Shown: positions 202 through 6,746 of the stretch, in pieces
How positions within the stretch are numbered: position 1 is the first letter of the stretch
Layout: every line of letters begins with the position of its first letter
Assembly (NCBI GenBank): GCA_024278215.1
Contig: JAJRTR010000087.1
Coordinates: 1-6,871, forward strand
DNA length: 6,871 bases
Direction: 5' to 3'
Origin: a bacterium
Lineage (GTDB): Bacteria; UBP15; UBA6099; JAJRTR01
The notes under the pieces: generated by a model
Seen by the model: only the letters and a program-made list of their open reading frames with translations
Told to the model about the DNA's origin: nothing
Databases searched by the model: none
Position numbers and translations under genes: made by a program

Positions 202-379
202 GAGCCGATTGGAAAATTCTGAATCGCCAGCGGTCGCCTGCAATGTCAACAGCAGCGTTGTCGGCACAAAACCTTACTCAACGTACTCTGCGAGTATACC
301 TGCGGAGATTTAACACTTCCGCCTTATTTTTGAACAATTTCGCTCGACCTCGCCTCGAACATGATTTTGCAATCGCCTC
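202..379 (+). repeat. Palindromic repeat family, copy A (diverged)
   Basis: This is a 178-base copy of a dispersed repeat also found at 2215-2393 and 3331-3509. It begins GAGCCGATTGGAAAATT and ends ATTTTGCAATCGCCTC, which are imperfect inverted repeats of each other. The centre is a hairpin, GTACTC-TGC-GAGTAT (283-297). Compared with copy C it has a 1-base deletion near 246 and many substitutions, so it is the oldest or least constrained of the three. The flanking four-base words (TGAG on the left, TCAT on the right) do not match, unlike those of the other two copies. It sits about 35 bases upstream of the moeA start. Confidence 0.85.
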
Positions 380-383
380 TCAT

Positions 384-412
384 ATTATATTACTTTACCA
401 AATTATTTTTAA
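384..412 (-). promoter_or_regulatory. Candidate promoter for the moeA-type gene, beyond repeat A
   Basis: On the minus strand there is TTAAAA (412-407), a 17-base spacer and a perfect TATAAT (389-384). Transcription would start near 377, at the edge of repeat A, so the moeA messenger would begin with the whole palindromic repeat as a leader of roughly 210 bases. The -35 box matches consensus at only four of six positions and the region is AT-rich, so a chance match is possible. Confidence 0.4.
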
Positions 413-465
413 TAATGTTGCATAGTTTCAGTGCTTGATTACGCAACTATCGGATCATTTAGTGT

Positions 466-471
466 TAGAAT
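466..471 (+). promoter_or_regulatory. Possible -10 box for the small membrane protein gene
   Basis: TAGAAT lies about 60 bases before the start at 533. The same TAGAAT word forms the -10 box of the glyQ and cyclase promoters in this window. No convincing -35 box is found 16-18 bases upstream, so the assignment rests on the shared -10 word. Confidence 0.3.
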
Positions 472-532
472 ATATGGTGGTGACTGGATTACGAAGCAGG
501 TGAAAAATCGAAATAAAAACGGAGAAATGAAA

Positions 533-640
533 ATGAACAATTATGGAAAATACAGAACTTTGAACAAGATTCGATATTCGGTTGCTGTGCTTGTAATCGT
601 AGGCATACTGCTGCTGATAAAAAGCTGCGCTGGCGGCTAA
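533..640 (+). CDS. Small single-pass membrane protein, 35 residues, unknown function
   Basis: The 35-residue product begins MNNYGKYRTLNKIR, with four basic residues and no acidic ones. A hydrophobic segment of about 15 residues follows (YSVAVLVIVGILLLI, roughly residues 15-29), then a short tail KSCAGG. This is the layout of a single-pass inner-membrane microprotein with its N-terminus in the cytoplasm. The ATG at 533 is chosen because GGAGA (521-525) lies at good spacing from it. The in-frame ATG at 527 is too close to that site, although it would add only MK. A lipoprotein is unlikely because lysine is two residues before the cysteine. The gene converges on the exported-protein gene with 74 bases between the stops. 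I do not recognise a family. Such a short ORF could be chance, but the ribosome binding site and charge pattern favour a real gene. Confidence 0.5.
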   Translation: MNNYGKYRTLNKIRYSVAVLVIVGILLLIKSCAGG

Positions 641-714
641 CCGCATATTTCACCTCTGCGGGCTGATTCCAATACTGCGTACTTTAGAGCATGAAGTGCA
701 TCAGAATAGGAAAA

Positions 715-1956
715 TCACCTGACCCAGAATCCGAAAGAATTTTCCTTAGTAGCGCCGACATTGTCTTCTGCATGAATTATCAGATAGTATTTTCCATGCG
801 GAAGATTTTCACTGAAAGTGTTTGCGTACCCGCAGGGATTTCGTTTCCCATTACAGACGGTTTCTGTTTTACTGTTATAATTTATATAATCACCCCGCAA
901 AGTCGAAATGATTTTTTTGATTGTTCGGCCATGTCCGCCGTCTCTTACCATATATTTTATTTCGACAAGTACCGAATTCTGATTGGGTGGAATGGTAAAA
1001 TCTGTGGCAAGACGGTTGGAGAAGTCTATTACGGGTTTGAACAACCCCGCGTCTTTTTCAGGATCATTTTTCTTCGACGTATTTTTAGATTTATTCATTG
1101 TCGGCGCGGGTGAATCGCCGGTGTTTTTGTCTTTGTCCAGTTTTATCGCGGCGTATAATGCCAACCCTGTCAGCAGGGCTTCCTTTATATTTTTCTTTTT
1201 GTTATTATCTTTTTGATCAATATCATCGCCGTTGGGATTGGCCGCATTCTTCGGTGCGCGTCTTCTCATCTCCTCTATGCGTGCAGACATTTCCGCTTTT
1301 GCTCCGTTGCTTGCGGATTCTTCAGTTTCCGGAGCAGCTTTTTTCGAACTGACTCGACGTTTTCTTACAGGATGTTTTTCTGACTCTTCTGACTCTTTGT
1401 CCTTTTTATCGCCAACCGCTTCAGCGACATCATCATTCTTATCTTCGTCACTGTCAAAATCAGGCACGATAAGTTCTACGCCCGATTCTCCCTCGACTTC
1501 GTCTTTCGACAATCCACTGTCGTAATCGTCTTCTTCGCTTTCATTATCGTTATCCACGATAACGGTTGATTCGACGTTTGCTTCATTGCCGTCATATTCT
1601 CTGCCGGCAATACATGATTTGTATTCAGAGTCGCTTTGTGCGCCGGCGCAGTGGCATTCCGCCTTTTCATCTTCGCCCAGTTTTGTGTAGCTTTCACACA
1701 GATACCAGTGCGGATAGTAATCAACGACATTACCGTCGACGGAGTGAACCCCCGAATCGGAATTGATGCTCAGAGCGAGTTCGATCTTTGCCGCACAATT
1801 TTTGAAATCTCCGCTTTTATAATACTGAACGCCCTGCAGATAATACGTGTTCCATGTTGCCGCGGATGCAATGCTGCCAACTGAAAAAAGCATAAACAAC
1901 ACAGGTACCGCGCATACTGAAATAAATATGATCCCTCTTTTGAGTTCGATTCTCAT
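715..1956 (-). CDS. Exported TPR-like protein with acidic linker and C-terminal Ig-like domain, unknown function
   Basis: The product has 413 residues. Residues 1-32 form a Sec signal peptide: basic start MRIELKR, hydrophobic core, and an A-S-A site before ATW. Residues 36-108 look like one or two TPR units (YYLQGVQYYKSGDFKNCAAK, then YYPHWYLCESYTKLGEDEKA). Residues 120-192 are very acidic (many D, E and S), followed by a basic stretch near 195-206. Residues 259-272 form a short hydrophobic segment that is probably too short to span a membrane. Residues 305-413 look like a beta-sandwich domain of the bacterial Ig-like kind: VLVEIKYMVRDGG near the front and GKYYLIIHAEDNVGATKENS at the end. Cysteines 368 and 375 could pair as a disulfide outside the cytoplasm. 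The likely place is the periplasm or cell envelope. The ribosome binding site is weak (GGAT, 8 bases before the ATG). I recognise the architecture but no named family. Confidence 0.85.
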   Translation of the reverse strand: MRIELKRGIIFISVCAVPVLFMLFSVGSIASAATWNTYYLQGVQYYKSGDFKNCAAKIELALSINSDSGVHSVDGNVVDYYPHWYLCESYTKLGEDEKAECHCAGAQSDSEYKSCIAGREYDGNEANVESTVIVDNDNESEEDDYDSGLSKDEVEGESGVELIVPDFDSDEDKNDDVAEAVGDKKDKESEESEKHPVRKRRVSSKKAAPETEESASNGAKAEMSARIEEMRRRAPKNAANPNGDDIDQKDNNKKKNIKEALLTGLALYAAIKLDKDKNTGDSPAPTMNKSKNTSKKNDPEKDAGLFKPVIDFSNRLATDFTIPPNQNSVLVEIKYMVRDGGHGRTIKKIISTLRGDYINYNSKTETVCNGKRNPCGYANTFSENLPHGKYYLIIHAEDNVGATKENSFGFWVR

Positions 1957-2009
1957 ATTTCACATCCGTTTTTTACTGTATTCAGGCGTGTTTTTGCAGT
2001 TGGTTATCT

Positions 2010-2063
2010 GTCGAGCTGATAGCAAAAGGTGCTTCGCCTGCGGTCGGCGGCAATCGACTCGAC
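2010..2063 (-). promoter_or_regulatory. Structured inverted-repeat segment in the leader of the exported-protein gene
   Basis: GTCGAG at 2010-2015 pairs with CTCGAC at 2058-2063. Inside lie smaller complementary pieces such as AGGTG-CTT-CGCCT, near 2027-2039. A transcript from the minus promoter at 2071-2098 would start close to 2064, so this fold would form its first 55 bases, with the start codon about 110 bases downstream. It could be a protective hairpin, a protein-binding leader or a repeat remnant. It matches no riboswitch class that I recognise. Confidence 0.35.
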
Positions 2064-2070
2064 TGTTGAT

Positions 2071-2098
2071 ATTTTATTCCAGGCAGTCCTGTTGTCAA
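2071..2098 (-). promoter_or_regulatory. Promoter for the exported-protein gene
   Basis: The minus strand reads TTGACA (2098-2093), a 16-base spacer and TAAAAT (2076-2071). That is a perfect -35 box and a five-of-six -10 box. Transcription would start near 2064 and read into the gene starting at 1956. Its -35 box overlaps that of the plus-strand promoter at 2092-2119. Confidence 0.6.
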
Positions 2099-2119
2099 CA
2101 TTATGAATGATAATATAAT
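2092..2119 (+). promoter_or_regulatory. Divergent plus-strand promoter (TTGTCA / TATAAT)
   Basis: TTGTCA (2092-2097), a 16-base spacer and a perfect TATAAT (2114-2119). Transcription would start near 2126, more than 300 bases before glyQ. The product could be the doubtful small ORF at 2159, a small RNA, or a long glyQ transcript passing through repeat B. The -35 box lies inside the palindrome GTTGTCAAC (2091-2099), shared with the opposing minus-strand promoter. Confidence 0.5.
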
Positions 2120-2158
2120 AATATGCAGCTATACGATGTATCGCCGAGAGGCAGCGCG

Positions 2159-2266
2159 ATGCAACGATTCAATGTGATTATATACGGTTGCGATCGGCAT
2201 GACATTATTCCTTTGAGCCAATTGCAAAATTATGATTCTGCTGTGGTCGGTTGCTATTGTCCATAG
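2159..2266 (+). CDS. Doubtful small ORF, its end altered by repeat B
   Basis: The ATG at 2159 is preceded by GAGAGG (2146-2151) at a 7-base spacing and lies about 33 bases downstream of a predicted transcription start. The frame encodes 35 residues starting MQRFNVIIYGCDRHDIIP. The part after codon 19 lies inside repeat copy B. If B and one copy of its flanking duplication are removed on paper, the frame would end after 20 residues, at a TGA lying within the glyQ -35 region. It could be a leader peptide, a decayed gene or chance. No homology is recognised, and the composition is not glycine-rich as a glyQ attenuator peptide would be. Confidence 0.22.
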   Translation: MQRFNVIIYGCDRHDIIPLSQLQNYDSAVVGCYCP

Positions 2267-2397
2267 CTGCGTTGTCGGCAGAAAATCGTCCTCGACGTAC
2301 TCTACAAGTACGCCTGCGGGGATTTCGCATCTCCGCCTTGCTTCGGAACAATTTCGCTCGACCTCGCTACGAATATAATTTCGCAATTGGCTCCTTT
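2210..2397. repeat. Flanking direct repeats (target-site duplication) of repeat copy B
   Basis: CCTTT lies at 2210-2214, directly before GAGCC, and again at 2393-2397, overlapping the last base of the element. Depending on whether that terminal C counts as element or flank, the duplication is 4 (CTTT) or 5 bases. Together with the same arrangement at copy C, this marks insertion by transposition rather than spread by recombination alone. Confidence 0.55.
2215..2393 (+). repeat. Palindromic repeat family, copy B (MITE-like)
   Basis: This copy is 179 bases, the same length as copy C with no gaps. By hand alignment it differs from C at 23 positions, about 87 percent identity. The ends GAGCCAATTG and CAATTGGCTC are perfect 10-base terminal inverted repeats. 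The two halves are partly complementary throughout, with the apex GTACT-CTACA-AGTAC at 2297-2311, so the element can fold as one long hairpin. It is flanked by CTTT on both sides. It encodes no transposase, so it would depend on an enzyme supplied elsewhere. The right end lies 7 bases before the glyQ -35 box. Confidence 0.88.
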
Positions 2398-2400
2398 TTC

Positions 2401-2429
2401 TTGACGTTGTAATATCACTTTGTTAGAAT
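2401..2429 (+). promoter_or_regulatory. glyQ promoter
   Basis: TTGACG (2401-2406), a 17-base spacer and TAGAAT (2424-2429). Both boxes match consensus at five of six positions and the spacing is ideal. The glyQ ATG is only 9 bases after the -10 box, so the transcript would have a leader of roughly zero to five bases. There is no room for, and no sign of, a ribosome binding site. Confidence 0.7.
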
Positions 2430-2438
2430 TGCTATTCC

Positions 2439-3317
2439 ATGATAAAACTAACTTTTCAGGAATTGATATTCAGGCTGGAGAAATACTGGTCGGACTACGG
2501 ATGCGTGATAGCGCAACCGTATGACATAGAAGTGGGCGCAGGCACTATGCACCCGCTTACATTTCTAAAAGCGCTGGGCGGCGAGCCGTGGAAAGTCGGC
2601 TATGTGCAGCCGTCGCGCAGGCCTGCGGACGGTCGTTATGGCGAGAACCCGATGCGTCTTCAGCAATATTTTCAATATCAGGTAATATTGAAACCATCTC
2701 CCGACGATGTGCAGGACCTTTATCTCCGGAGCCTGGAGTCTGTAGGCCTTAGTATAAATGATCATGATATCCGGTTTGTCGAGGACGACTGGGAATCGCC
2801 CACACTTGGTGCCTGGGGACTTGGCTGGGAGGTGTGGCTCGACGGCAACGAGATAACCCAGTTTACATATTTCCAGCAGGTAGGCGGTATCGACCTGCCG
2901 GTTGTCTGTGCGGAGGTCACATACGGACTCGAACGAATATGTATGTATATCCAGGGTGTCGATAATGTTTACGAACTGAACTGGACGGAGAATCTGAAAT
3001 ACGGTGATATATACAGGGAAAATGAACGCCAGCAGTCATATTACAACTTGCAGTATGCCGCTGTTGATTCACTTTTCACCCTTTTCGATTTGCATGAAAA
3101 GGAGTCGAAGATGCTGCTCGATCTCGGCATGCCGCTTCCTGCATACGACCAGGTGCTGAAGTGTTCGCATATTTTCAATCTGCTTGACGCGCGTAATGCG
3201 ATCAGCGTAACGGAGAGGCAGGATGTGATCGGCAGGGTGCGCGACCTGGCAAGCGGATGCGCGAGGCAGTATCTGGAGATGATAAGTCCTGAAGAAGAAT
3301 CGGAAAATGTGGGGTAG
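2439..3317 (+). CDS. glyQ: Glycyl-tRNA synthetase alpha subunit
   Basis: The 292-residue product has the normal length and motifs of GlyQ, the catalytic alpha subunit of the bacterial alpha2-beta2 glycyl-tRNA synthetase. This cytoplasmic class II enzyme charges tRNA-Gly with glycine using ATP. Seen in the sequence are [17 protein letters not shown] (31-47), [16 protein letters not shown] (56-71, motif 2 region), [15 protein letters not shown] (122-136), [11 protein letters not shown] (140-150), the motif 3 core [15 protein letters not shown] (161-175) and [15 protein letters not shown] (246-260). The ATG start fits the family N-terminus ([19 protein letters not shown]), yet it has no ribosome binding site and lies 9 bases after a -10 box, so the messenger is probably leaderless. 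The beta subunit gene glyS normally follows directly, but here repeat C and a cyclase gene follow instead. A distant glyS is therefore expected. The identification is secure. Confidence 0.97.
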
Positions 3318-3325
3318 GCGCAATA

Positions 3326-3513
3326 CTGTTGAGCCAATTGAAAAATTCTGATTCGGCTGCGGTAGGCTGCAATTGTCCATAGCTGCGTTGTCGGCACAAA
3401 ATCATCCTCAACGTACTCCACGAGTACGCCTGTGGTGATTTTGCACCTCCGCCTTGCTTCAGAATAATTTCGTTCGACCTCGCTTCGAACATAATTTTGC
3501 AATTAGCTCTGTT
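3326..3513. repeat. Flanking direct repeats (target-site duplication) of repeat copy C
   Basis: CTGTT lies at 3326-3330 directly before GAGCC, and again at 3509-3513, sharing the terminal C of the element. The arrangement is the same as at copy B but with a different word, as expected for independent insertions. The length is 4 (TGTT) or 5 bases depending on the terminal C. Confidence 0.55.
3331..3509 (+). repeat. Palindromic repeat family, copy C (MITE-like)
   Basis: A 179-base copy that starts 14 bases after the glyQ stop codon. The terminal inverted repeats are GAGCCAATTG and CAATTAGCTC, with one mismatch. The hairpin apex GTACTC-CAC-GAGTAC (3413-3427) has a perfect 6-base stem, and the arms beyond it stay complementary in patches (for example CACAAAATCAT against GTGATTTTGC). 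It could act as a strong RNA structure at the 3' end of the glyQ transcript, protecting or ending it, although no run of T follows as in a classical terminator. Confidence 0.88.
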
Positions 3514-3717: not shown

Positions 3718-6555
3718 GTGACGCCAAAATCGGCCGACCTCAAGCGTACAGCAGTCAAACAGAGTCTGCTCGATGTCGATCTCATGCTCAAGGAAGCAAA
3801 CGAACATGCTTCACTTGGAATAAATGATGTTGCGCTGTCGCTTTACCAGAAAGCGCTGAAAAGCCTGCGGGAGCGTTTTGCAGGCGATGTGAAAAACATA
3901 CCGGTCGATGTGCTTGTCATAAGATTCCGTGTTCTGATTCAACTTTCAAAGCTGTTTTCCGCCTCAGGCCGACATGAAGAAGCGTTGAAATTCGCAGGCG
4001 ATGCCAACCAGCTTGCTTCAATTGCCCTTAAAGATGAAGTCGAACTTTTACTCATTTCATGCACCGAACTTACAAGGCTTTACATCGTTGCATCCGACCT
4101 GAACTCCGCAAAGAAAATCGTGGCCCGTGCAAACAAAGCCCCAAAGGGCGAAGACACCGGACTGTGCCAGGCTTTAAACTCGCTGGGCACAGGCAGGCTC
4201 TTCTTCGCATTCAAAAAATATGACATGGCGATGAATATCATCGAAAAAGGCTTGCGAGCGCTCCGGAAACCAAAAACCAGAGATCATATTGAAGTTAAAA
4301 CAGACTTGTACAGTCTATACGTCGCATCCCTGAAAGCAGCGGGAGAAAAAGATAAAGCAGAAACTGTTCGCGACGAAGCAGTCGAGTTGTTGAACAAGAG
4401 CGGCAGAATAGCAAGAGACCGCGAAGAGGGTACATTCGATGCGATTTACTACTATACGAAAGCGCTGAAGGTACTTTCTACGGCACCGGATTCAGAGTTG
4501 AAAATAGCAAGGATATCTGAAGTCAACTTGAATCTTGCTGATATTCTCATAGTGAGGGGCCTGTGGTATGTTGCGCGAAAATTATTAAAAGAAACATCCG
4601 ATTTCTATGTGGACAGCACGGATCATGATCCGAAAAATCGCATACTTTGCTGGGTAGGTCTCGGACAACTTTATATCGAGATGAAGCGCTACGAAAAGGC
4701 TGAGGATATTCTTTATAAATCCATATCATTTGCAGAAAACAGCAAGAATATATATTGCTACTGTCTGGCGAATCATTACCTTGGTTTGTGTATATCCAAG
4801 ATGGGTGACGACGAAAAAGGAGTAGAAAAGTTTGAAGAAGCCCTTGATTTCCTGCAGGACGTGTCGGACAGCCGCGAAAAATTCAGCCTGATGGCACGCA
4901 TCTACAATCAGCTGGGGTTCATAGAGGCAAAAAAACAGAATATCGAGAAAGCCGTCGAGTATCTGAAAAACAGCGTCGAGTTGCTTCGTCCATATACAAG
5001 GGACCTCGCGCTGGGCGAAGCATACCGGATGCTCGGTGAAATATATTCGCAACGACAACAATACATGCAGAGTGAACGCACCCTGAAAATTTCACTGGAA
5101 ATATATGAAAAGAAAAACGCCCGGATCGAAGTGGCTCGAGTTTATAGAAGTATTGGAATCAACTTCCTGAGCCGGGGCGAATTGGATAAAGCGACATTTT
5201 TCCTTGATGAAGCGATAGAGATTTTTGAAAAACTCGGTCTCGATTCGGACTTGCCCAAACTCTACAGCAACAAAGCCCAAGTATGTATTATGAAGGAAGA
5301 TTACATCGCGGCCGAAGACCTTTCCAAGAAAGATTTCGAGATAGCGAAAAAATTCGACAACAAACATTCGCTTGCTTTTTCCTATTACCACCTTGGCCGC
5401 ATCAGGCGATTGCTCAAGAGAACACATTCCGCCGAGGATTTCCTGAAAAGAAGCCTGGCGCTTTTCGAGGAAGTTAATAACATGGATATGGCGGGCCATG
5501 TGATGATCGAACTCGCGCTGTGCGCCTCTGAACGAAAAGATGTGAAATCTGCAACGGACTATTGCGCGAAAACACAGAAAATTTTTAAACGCGACAAGCG
5601 GAATTCTCCCGAACTCGCCAAATTGCTTGTGACTCGCGGCATCGTCCTTAGAACCGCAGACAGAAGACAGATAGCCAGACGTTGTTTCGAAGACGCACTC
5701 AGAATGTATGATAAGCTCGAGATGGTAGTGATCGACCTTGCTGAAGCACACTTCGAATTCGCGATGTACTGGAAGGGCATAAACGACAGAAAAACCGCCA
5801 CCGAACATATGAGAAGCGCCATCGATATCGCCGAAAAACTCGGCCTCGGTCGTAAAGTCGATTCCTACCTTCAGGAACTCAACGCGTTCAACCCGGAAGA
5901 AGGATCAAAGCTGCGGCTGTCGCAACTCATGGACAAGTCCGCTGTCGAGCAGTTCACCAGCAGGAAAGTTAAAAGCGGGCAGCTTGTGGTAGAAAAGAAA
6001 CACCTGACGATCCTCTTTACCGACATACGTAGTTTCACGATGATTTCCGAAACTCTGTCACTCGATGACATGACTTCCTTCCTCAACGACTTCTACAGGA
6101 ATGTAACGCAGGTAGTAATGAAATTCAACGGGCAGATCAACAAATTCATCGGTGACGCGGCGATGGCGATATTCAACATGGACGGCCAACTCGACGATCA
6201 TCCCGTGTGGGCGGTACGCGCGGCGCTGGACCTCGTGAGGGCAATGGAAGAGACAAATCACATTAGATCAAAAAAAGGCGAGATGCCGATACATGTGGGA
6301 ATCGGCATCAACACGGGAGAAGTGCTGCTCGGCGCGTTCGGCTCGGGGCTCAGGCTCGATTACACTGCCATCGGCGACAATGTTAATATCGCCTCCAGGA
6401 TTCAGGGCCAGGCCGGACCAGGCGAAATCGTCATAAGCGACGCGACACTTGAACATGTAAAGGATATTGTCACTGTCGAAGACCTCGGAGAAAAACCCCT
6501 CAAAGGAAAAGGACAGCCGCTGCGGCTCCACAAAGTGATGTGCCTCAAGGAATGA
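3718..6555 (+). CDS. TPR-repeat class III adenylate cyclase, 945 residues
   Basis: Residues 30-700 are about sixteen helical repeats of the TPR type, for example LGQLYIEMKRYEKAEDILYK (315-334), LGFIEAKKQNIEKAVEYLKN (399-418) and LGEIYSQRQQYMQSERTLK (439-457). Residues 728-755 are the helical linker before the catalytic domain, which covers 760-945. Class III cyclase residues are complete: metal-binding Asp769 (LFTDIRSF) and Asp813 (FIGDAAMAIF), purine-selecting Lys809 and Thr883 (DYTAIGDNVNIASRI), and transition-state Asn890 and Arg894. Lys with Thr points to ATP as substrate and to subclass IIIb, some of whose members respond to bicarbonate; that last property is inference. The enzyme should work as a homodimer making cyclic AMP. 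There is no membrane segment or signal peptide, so it is probably cytoplasmic with the TPR array as the sensing or docking part. A GTG start with good ribosome binding site and promoter suggests a single-gene unit. Confidence 0.93.
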   Translation: MTPKSADLKRTAVKQSLLDVDLMLKEANEHASLGINDVALSLYQKALKSLRERFAGDVKNIPVDVLVIRFRVLIQLSKLFSASGRHEEALKFAGDANQLASIALKDEVELLLISCTELTRLYIVASDLNSAKKIVARANKAPKGEDTGLCQALNSLGTGRLFFAFKKYDMAMNIIEKGLRALRKPKTRDHIEVKTDLYSLYVASLKAAGEKDKAETVRDEAVELLNKSGRIARDREEGTFDAIYYYTKALKVLSTAPDSELKIARISEVNLNLADILIVRGLWYVARKLLKETSDFYVDSTDHDPKNRILCWVGLGQLYIEMKRYEKAEDILYKSISFAENSKNIYCYCLANHYLGLCISKMGDDEKGVEKFEEALDFLQDVSDSREKFSLMARIYNQLGFIEAKKQNIEKAVEYLKNSVELLRPYTRDLALGEAYRMLGEIYSQRQQYMQSERTLKISLEIYEKKNARIEVARVYRSIGINFLSRGELDKATFFLDEAIEIFEKLGLDSDLPKLYSNKAQVCIMKEDYIAAEDLSKKDFEIAKKFDNKHSLAFSYYHLGRIRRLLKRTHSAEDFLKRSLALFEEVNNMDMAGHVMIELALCASERKDVKSATDYCAKTQKIFKRDKRNSPELAKLLVTRGIVLRTADRRQIARRCFEDALRMYDKLEMVVIDLAEAHFEFAMYWKGINDRKTATEHMRSAIDIAEKLGLGRKVDSYLQELNAFNPEEGSKLRLSQLMDKSAVEQFTSRKVKSGQLVVEKKHLTILFTDIRSFTMISETLSLDDMTSFLNDFYRNVTQVVMKFNGQINKFIGDAAMAIFNMDGQLDDHPVWAVRAALDLVRAMEETNHIRSKKGEMPIHVGIGINTGEVLLGAFGSGLRLDYTAIGDNVNIASRIQGQAGPGEIVISDATLEHVKDIVTVEDLGEKPLKGKGQPLRLHKVMCLKE

Positions 6556-6694
6556 TTCGTGTGTAATAAGTCATTTTCAAAAACAATGTTTTTGTCAAAG
6601 TCGGCCAAGATGTTCTGAAATGCAGAACGCACGTTCGTTATAGTCGATCATTTTTGGTTGACATTTGTCATCTTCGACTTATTATGCACGAATC
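6554..6694. repeat. Inverted-repeat element touching the cyclase stop codon
   Basis: A 19-base inverted repeat, 6554-6572 against 6676-6694, matches at 17 of 19 positions and bounds a 141-base segment. Inside are small palindromes: CAAAAACA-A-TGTTTTTG (6578-6594), GTTCTG-AAATG-CAGAAC (6612-6628) and TGACA-TT-TGTCA (6659-6670). The segment is flanked by near-identical 10-base direct repeats, CAAGGAATGA (6546-6555) and CAAGAAATGA (6694-6703), so the last codons of the cyclase gene and its stop appear twice. This looks like a small non-autonomous insertion at the end of the gene, different in sequence from the 179-base family. A long 3' hairpin serving the cyclase messenger is the alternative. 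Confidence 0.6.
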
Positions 6695-6746
6695 AAGAAA
6701 TGAGCGCTTGTTTACATTCGCTGACAGGTGTTATAAACGCTGGCCG

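Follow-up and report, generated by a model that had tools for sequence, protein, structure and literature searches.

The three palindromic repeats of about 179 bp in the window (the whole stretch analyzed, 6,871 nucleotides) are copies of a MITE: they are short, non-coding and too small to encode a transposase, with fixed terminal inverted repeats and a target duplication of fixed length. The family belongs to a group of elements scattered across bacteria that had not been linked before and that probably takes in the ERIC repeats of gut bacteria. Taken jointly, the reading that we consider likely is that of a 179-bp MITE whose interior acts as a folded strand, with ERIC probably in the same superfamily.

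Copies in the window and in the host genome

Copies A (202-379, 178 bp), B (2215-2393, 179 bp) and C (3331-3509, 179 bp) are full-length, share one orientation (+ strand) and each form a single imperfect palindrome, with profile E values of 1e-32, 3e-40 and 2e-53, respectively. These three copies had been proposed in the first-pass annotation, along with terminal inverted repeats and a GTACTC/GAGTAC apex; both are present, the apex as GTACTC-nnn-GAGTAC. It also put the identity of B and C at about 87% without gaps, with A more diverged; the ungapped repeat comparison gave 86% for B vs. C and 65% for A vs. B, with indels in A. Copy A is old and has no flanking duplication. Copies B and C lie between exact 4-bp duplications read directly from the sequence, CTTT (2211-2214 and 2394-2397) and TGTT (3327-3330 and 3510-3513), and element boundaries fall exactly at GAG/CTC, with GAGCCAATTG at the left end and CAATTGGCTC at the right. 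The terminal inverted repeat GAGCCAATTGCAAAAT of copy B (2215-2230, + strand) is mirrored at 2378-2393, and that of copy C (3331-3346, + strand) at 3494-3509. Two interior boxes of copy C are kept in other bacteria, box 1 (CTGCGTTGTCGGC, 3383-3395, + strand; 2267-2279 in copy B) and box 2 (CCGCCTTG, 3449-3456, + strand). The hairpin apex of copy C, ACGTACTC-CAC-GAGTACGC, lies at 3411-3429, agrees with paired-column counts and is followed by a conserved CCT bulge. Folding, a check suggested in the first-pass annotation, gave -57.5 kcal/mol (+ strand) and -63 kcal/mol (- strand) for copy C, far better than dinucleotide shuffles on both strands (z = -4.6 and -5.0). No named family had been recognized at that stage, and the Rfam search likewise returned none above the gathering threshold at the window elements, and sub-threshold chance matches only for the homologues.

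Between the same-orientation copies B and C lies glyQ (glycyl-tRNA synthetase alpha, 2439-3317), with copy B 46 bp upstream of its start codon and copy C starting 14 bp past its stop codon; glyS does not come after glyQ in the window. The gene at 3718-6555 codes for a 945-aa protein that combines a long TPR array with an adenylate/guanylate cyclase domain at its C terminus. At the cyclase stop codon there is a separate inverted repeat (6553-6695; 20-nt arms, 90% complementary, 103 nt apart), which may be a further small palindromic element.

Within a draft genome of 4.55 Mb, the window makes up contig 57. Genome-wide, the 16-base end with at most one mismatch was counted 552 times (0 for the reversed control), and the interior box CTGCGTTGTCGGC 306 times (8 in the control). 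BLAST recovered at least 40 near-full-length copies among 456 first-look candidates. A 1.48-Mb sample, a third of the genome chosen partly for copy-rich contigs, contained 159 matches, 95 of them full length. We estimate that the host genome holds about 300 intact copies, up to about 500 with fragments, or roughly 1-2% of its length. Many contigs begin or stop within a copy, as expected of an assembly-breaking repeat. Length was 177-179 bp in 83 of the 95 full copies (range 176 to 181 bp). Median pairwise identity was 89% (range about 76-98%) and, with hundreds of same-ended copies, agrees with the earlier suggestion of a long-lived, abundant family. The family has two sub-lineages, one of 178 bp and one of 179 bp, set apart by about 14 linked positions besides the one-base difference in length. 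Two copies (L045 18518-18640 and L057 14638-14790) are apparently interrupted by other short palindromic sequences, GGGGGGTATGTACTTGACTC... and GGCGCAAAAAGTCC...GGACTTTTTGCGCC, which suggests that the host genome has more palindromic families.

An exact 4-bp flanking duplication was found in 57 of the 93 full copies with flanks, vs. 1.35 expected when flanks of different copies were paired; duplications of other lengths were at or near this null. The duplicated sites are A/T-rich, and TA is not required. A few collapsed copies of 39-106 bp keep both tips and the 4-bp duplication (e.g., L062 6953-6998); as each length occurs once, they look like post-insertion deletions, none of which has multiplied. 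The autonomous partner was sought genome-wide among DDE_Tnp_1 genes (three) and DDE_Tnp_1_6 remnants (two), none with matching ends, and in 1.48 Mb of the 4.55 Mb no two ends spaced at IS length survived inspection. The 1443-bp and 2081-bp end pairs on L051 and L240 were rejected as chance pairings of MITE remnants, and a transposase remnant on L071 as a mere neighbor, the adjoining MITE having its own CATA duplication. A partner could have been lost or missed by the assembly, or it could belong to a transposase family other than DDE_Tnp_1 and DDE_Tnp_1_6. Under the proposed mechanism, a transposase whose gene lies elsewhere, probably of the DDE type, would act on the GAGCCAATTGCAAAAT ends, with insertion via a 4-bp staggered cut at A/T-rich sites. 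On the strand opposite CTGCGTTG, the interior would function single-stranded and folded, either as RNA or as exposed single-stranded DNA, and selection would keep this fold, not a protein.

Relatives in other bacteria and the shared interior

BLAST of the element in 40 relatives, the nearest being other families of the host's order, gave no match. When named genomes were scanned by pattern, the same interior turned up in the Planctomycetota MAGs B36T1B5 and B58T3L14, the 'Acidobacteria' MAG B69T1B8 and the Phycisphaerae MAG Tobar13.5m-G39, with 27, 19, 1 and 12 BLAST matches, respectively (59 in total, some of them fragments). These homologues equal the window family in length, align with it end to end and conserve the interior boxes. 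Their ends are GAACTGGTTTC, GAAGTCATCCC, GAACCCATTTC or GGCACTCTAAC, with the complementary partner at the opposite end in nearly every copy, and many of the Planctomycetota copies, read by eye, lie between TA and TA. The first-pass annotation took a centre shared by relatives without the ends as a sign against a family. Such sharing does occur in other bacteria, but the family stands: ends are fixed within the host genome, and between species both ends change together, stay complementary and hold the same alignment positions.

Covariance models find members that sequence search misses. The model of the element core (R1) gave three copies in G005, a member of the host's order where blastn gave none, and full-length matches in 12 of 386 genomes, the host included (11 others); all but a few of these matches fold as one long hairpin. 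The central model (R2), for which G053, an unrelated 2.2-Mb genome of another phylum, supplied only three training sequences, found 43 copies in that genome. With the G053 copies added (R3; E up to 1e-4), the interior was detected in 24 of 386 genomes and 23 of 327 genera, the host included (23 of 385 others, about 6%). Plasmids and phages were searched with no match. Nine pattern matches in viral contigs were all rejected as chance coding matches, as were those to Shewanella, Oscillospiraceae and Berkelbacteria among 13 genome-contig pattern matches.

The abundant element of G053 is about 125 bp long and starts with TATAC or TAC; TNA on both sides of 11 of 18 copies (6 exact) is moderate evidence for a target duplication. 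At least three distinct sub-families of the superfamily, 125-bp ERIC-like and 180-bp forms, occur side by side in this genome (L181-L210). On L206, L208 and L209, the TNA triplets on the two sides of some copies are reverse-complementary (TGA/TCA, TAA/TTA) and not direct repeats. Target duplications apparently differ: 4 bp in the host (strong evidence), TNA in G053 (moderate) and TA in many Planctomycetota. If these differences hold up, the one interior has been combined with more than one insertion chemistry, which is the strangest and the least certain of our conclusions.

Conserved across unrelated bacteria are the boxes CTGCGTTG and CCGCCTTG around the stem, and the apex CTCRACRTA...TAYGCCTSCG. 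Arms and ends are replaced between species with complementarity retained; among the compared species, conservation is lowest at the ends and highest in the interior. Across 26 diverse members, 84% of the named stem cells were paired, vs. 75% in shuffles and 31-51% when the stem was slid; changes on both sides were seen at 9 of 14 stem pairs, and the covariation score was 0.292 vs. 0.129. Stem mismatches were retained in place and were strand-biased. In a second set of 16 elements that had not been folded in the first set, the CTGCGTTG strand had 30 pyrimidine.pyrimidine and 3 purine.purine mismatches, and the first set had the same trend; on the opposite strand these become purine.purine, mostly G.A. 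The strand opposite CTGCGTTG folds better, by about 10 kcal/mol, in 21 of 27 cases and in 15 of 16 additional families. This pattern suggests that one strand of the interior is the working form, folded as RNA or single-stranded DNA. The strand bias counts as support and not as proof, as ancestry is partly shared; the asymmetry could be inherited with the boxes and not selected afresh in each family.

Competing explanations and wider reading

The strongest competitor is an ordinary DNA-only MITE. Its palindrome would consist of long terminal repeats, with complementarity maintained by the transposase together with palindrome correction in replication; the interior would be without function, and ancestry plus horizontal transfer would explain the boxes held in common. 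Clean ends and target duplications fit this explanation, complementary end changes are what it expects if one arm templates the other, and the short duplication-flanked forms (39-106 bp) show that palindromes collapse post-insertion. However, recognition by a transposase predicts conserved ends, the reverse of what was found, and the 30 vs. 3 bias of mismatches retained in place also speaks against it; we regard this explanation as somewhat less likely than not. Alternatively, a non-coding RNA with a defined structure or a hairpin with a regulatory role (terminator or RNase site), spread as a domesticated element and kept for its effect on neighboring transcripts, would account for the covarying structure and the strand asymmetry, and ERIC in Yersinia has been reported to act on neighboring transcripts (PMC2229807). 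Placement is also in its favor, with 90 of the 95 full copies intergenic although coding sequence takes up about 80% of the sample, and with divergent gaps over-represented at 27 of 73 vs. 121 of 629 gaps (both from our own gene caller and approximate, the latter uncorrected for gap length). Orientation relative to genes is nevertheless near random (21 opposite, 15 same), copies decay freely (identity to the consensus as low as 81%) and relatives of the same order mostly have no such element, which makes a regulatory hairpin unlikely.

Two further explanations have little probability. If a RAYT (Y1) transposase mobilized a REP/BIME-like palindrome, the element would also be palindromic, intergenic and present in hundreds of copies, but the 179-bp unit has exact 4-bp target duplications, and to our knowledge Y1/RAYT systems make none; the duplications refute this explanation for the unit tested, and we give it very little credence overall. 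Least probable of all is a coding repeat for a small protein. Open frames of about 85 aa do cross copies B and C, but the main sub-lineages are one base apart and copies run from 176 to 181 bp, which shifts the frame, and conservation follows base pairing.

Beyond the 179-bp MITE with a folded interior, it is possible, at a little under even chances, that a bacteria-wide superfamily of non-autonomous mobile hairpins exists that includes ERIC, with its heritable identity in the folded interior strand and with ends and duplication (TA, TNA or 4 bp) exchanged, much as though a single structured passenger had either adapted to several transposases or recruited them. Grouping ERIC with the elements that share its interior plan, which occur in Planctomycetota and candidate phyla and in about 6% of the sampled genomes, would make them a general class of selfish hairpin. 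The puzzle of why a mobile element conserves its middle and lets its ends change is thereby made testable.

ERIC and other known systems

ERIC repeats have been used in strain typing for decades, and the enzyme that mobilizes them is only inferred. In the published ERIC consensus (PMC2759123), CTGCGTTGGCTGC and CCGCCTTG are spaced as in the window family. The interior boxes are CTGCGTTGgCtGC and CCGCCTTG in ERIC, about 75 nt apart, and CTGCGTTGtCgGC and CCGCCTTG here, 73-75 nt apart. In an alignment with ERIC, the G053 element falls on matching coordinates (score 30), and none of 1000 structure-preserving shuffles was as good. An R3 match on L233, found by a model that contains no ERIC, has the ERIC apex TCACTTAC...GTAAGCTCC, and none of 600 such shuffles matched ERIC as well. 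The two strands of ERIC fold at -45.2 vs. -61.8 kcal/mol, the same asymmetry as here. Compared directly, ERIC and the window element are weakly similar, with 37 of 1000 shuffles as good; E. coli ERIC copies scored 8.8-10 bits in the R2 and R3 models, which was not significant, and the profile HMM was too weak for scoring ERIC. By way of the two bridges, the G053 element and L233, ERIC is probably a distant member of the superfamily.

The window family is not an ERIC, as length, ends and target duplication differ: ERIC (also IRU or RU-1) is 127 bp with TATAC...GTATA ends and a TA duplication, whereas the window element is 179 bp with GAGCC...GGCTC ends and a 4-bp duplication. The ERIC apex is TCACTTAC/GTAAGCTCC, and the outer boxes are absent from ERIC. 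The two are alike in forming one imperfect hairpin, in box spacing, in fold asymmetry and in reaching hundreds of intergenic copies in some genomes. The reported range of ERIC is limited to Enterobacteriaceae and Vibrionaceae, and bacterial MITE sizes and ERIC copy numbers have been reviewed (PMC10969869). MITEPlu5 of Photorhabdus luminescens, of the ERIC group, has 552 copies and has been linked to IS630 (PMC6267812). In the literature searched, which left out most subscription papers, no report joins ERIC to elements of other phyla.

MITEs of the IS630/Tc1 type are similarly small and non-coding with terminal inverted repeats, and the Planctomycetota homologues are often TA-flanked; such MITEs duplicate TA, whereas the window family duplicates 4 bp without requiring TA. 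Correia/NEMIS, RUP, Chunjie and other bacterial MITEs are alike in size class, intergenic placement and inverted ends, a comparison drawn from the literature and not by sequence. REP/BIME repeats with RAYT are likewise palindromic, intergenic and abundant, but differ in unit size (REPs are 20-40 bp) and in target duplication. The attC sites of integrons provide an analogy only, with no kinship claimed: they too are imperfect palindromes in which the fold is conserved over the sequence and one strand is favored, but here there is no integrase context, and target duplications are present.
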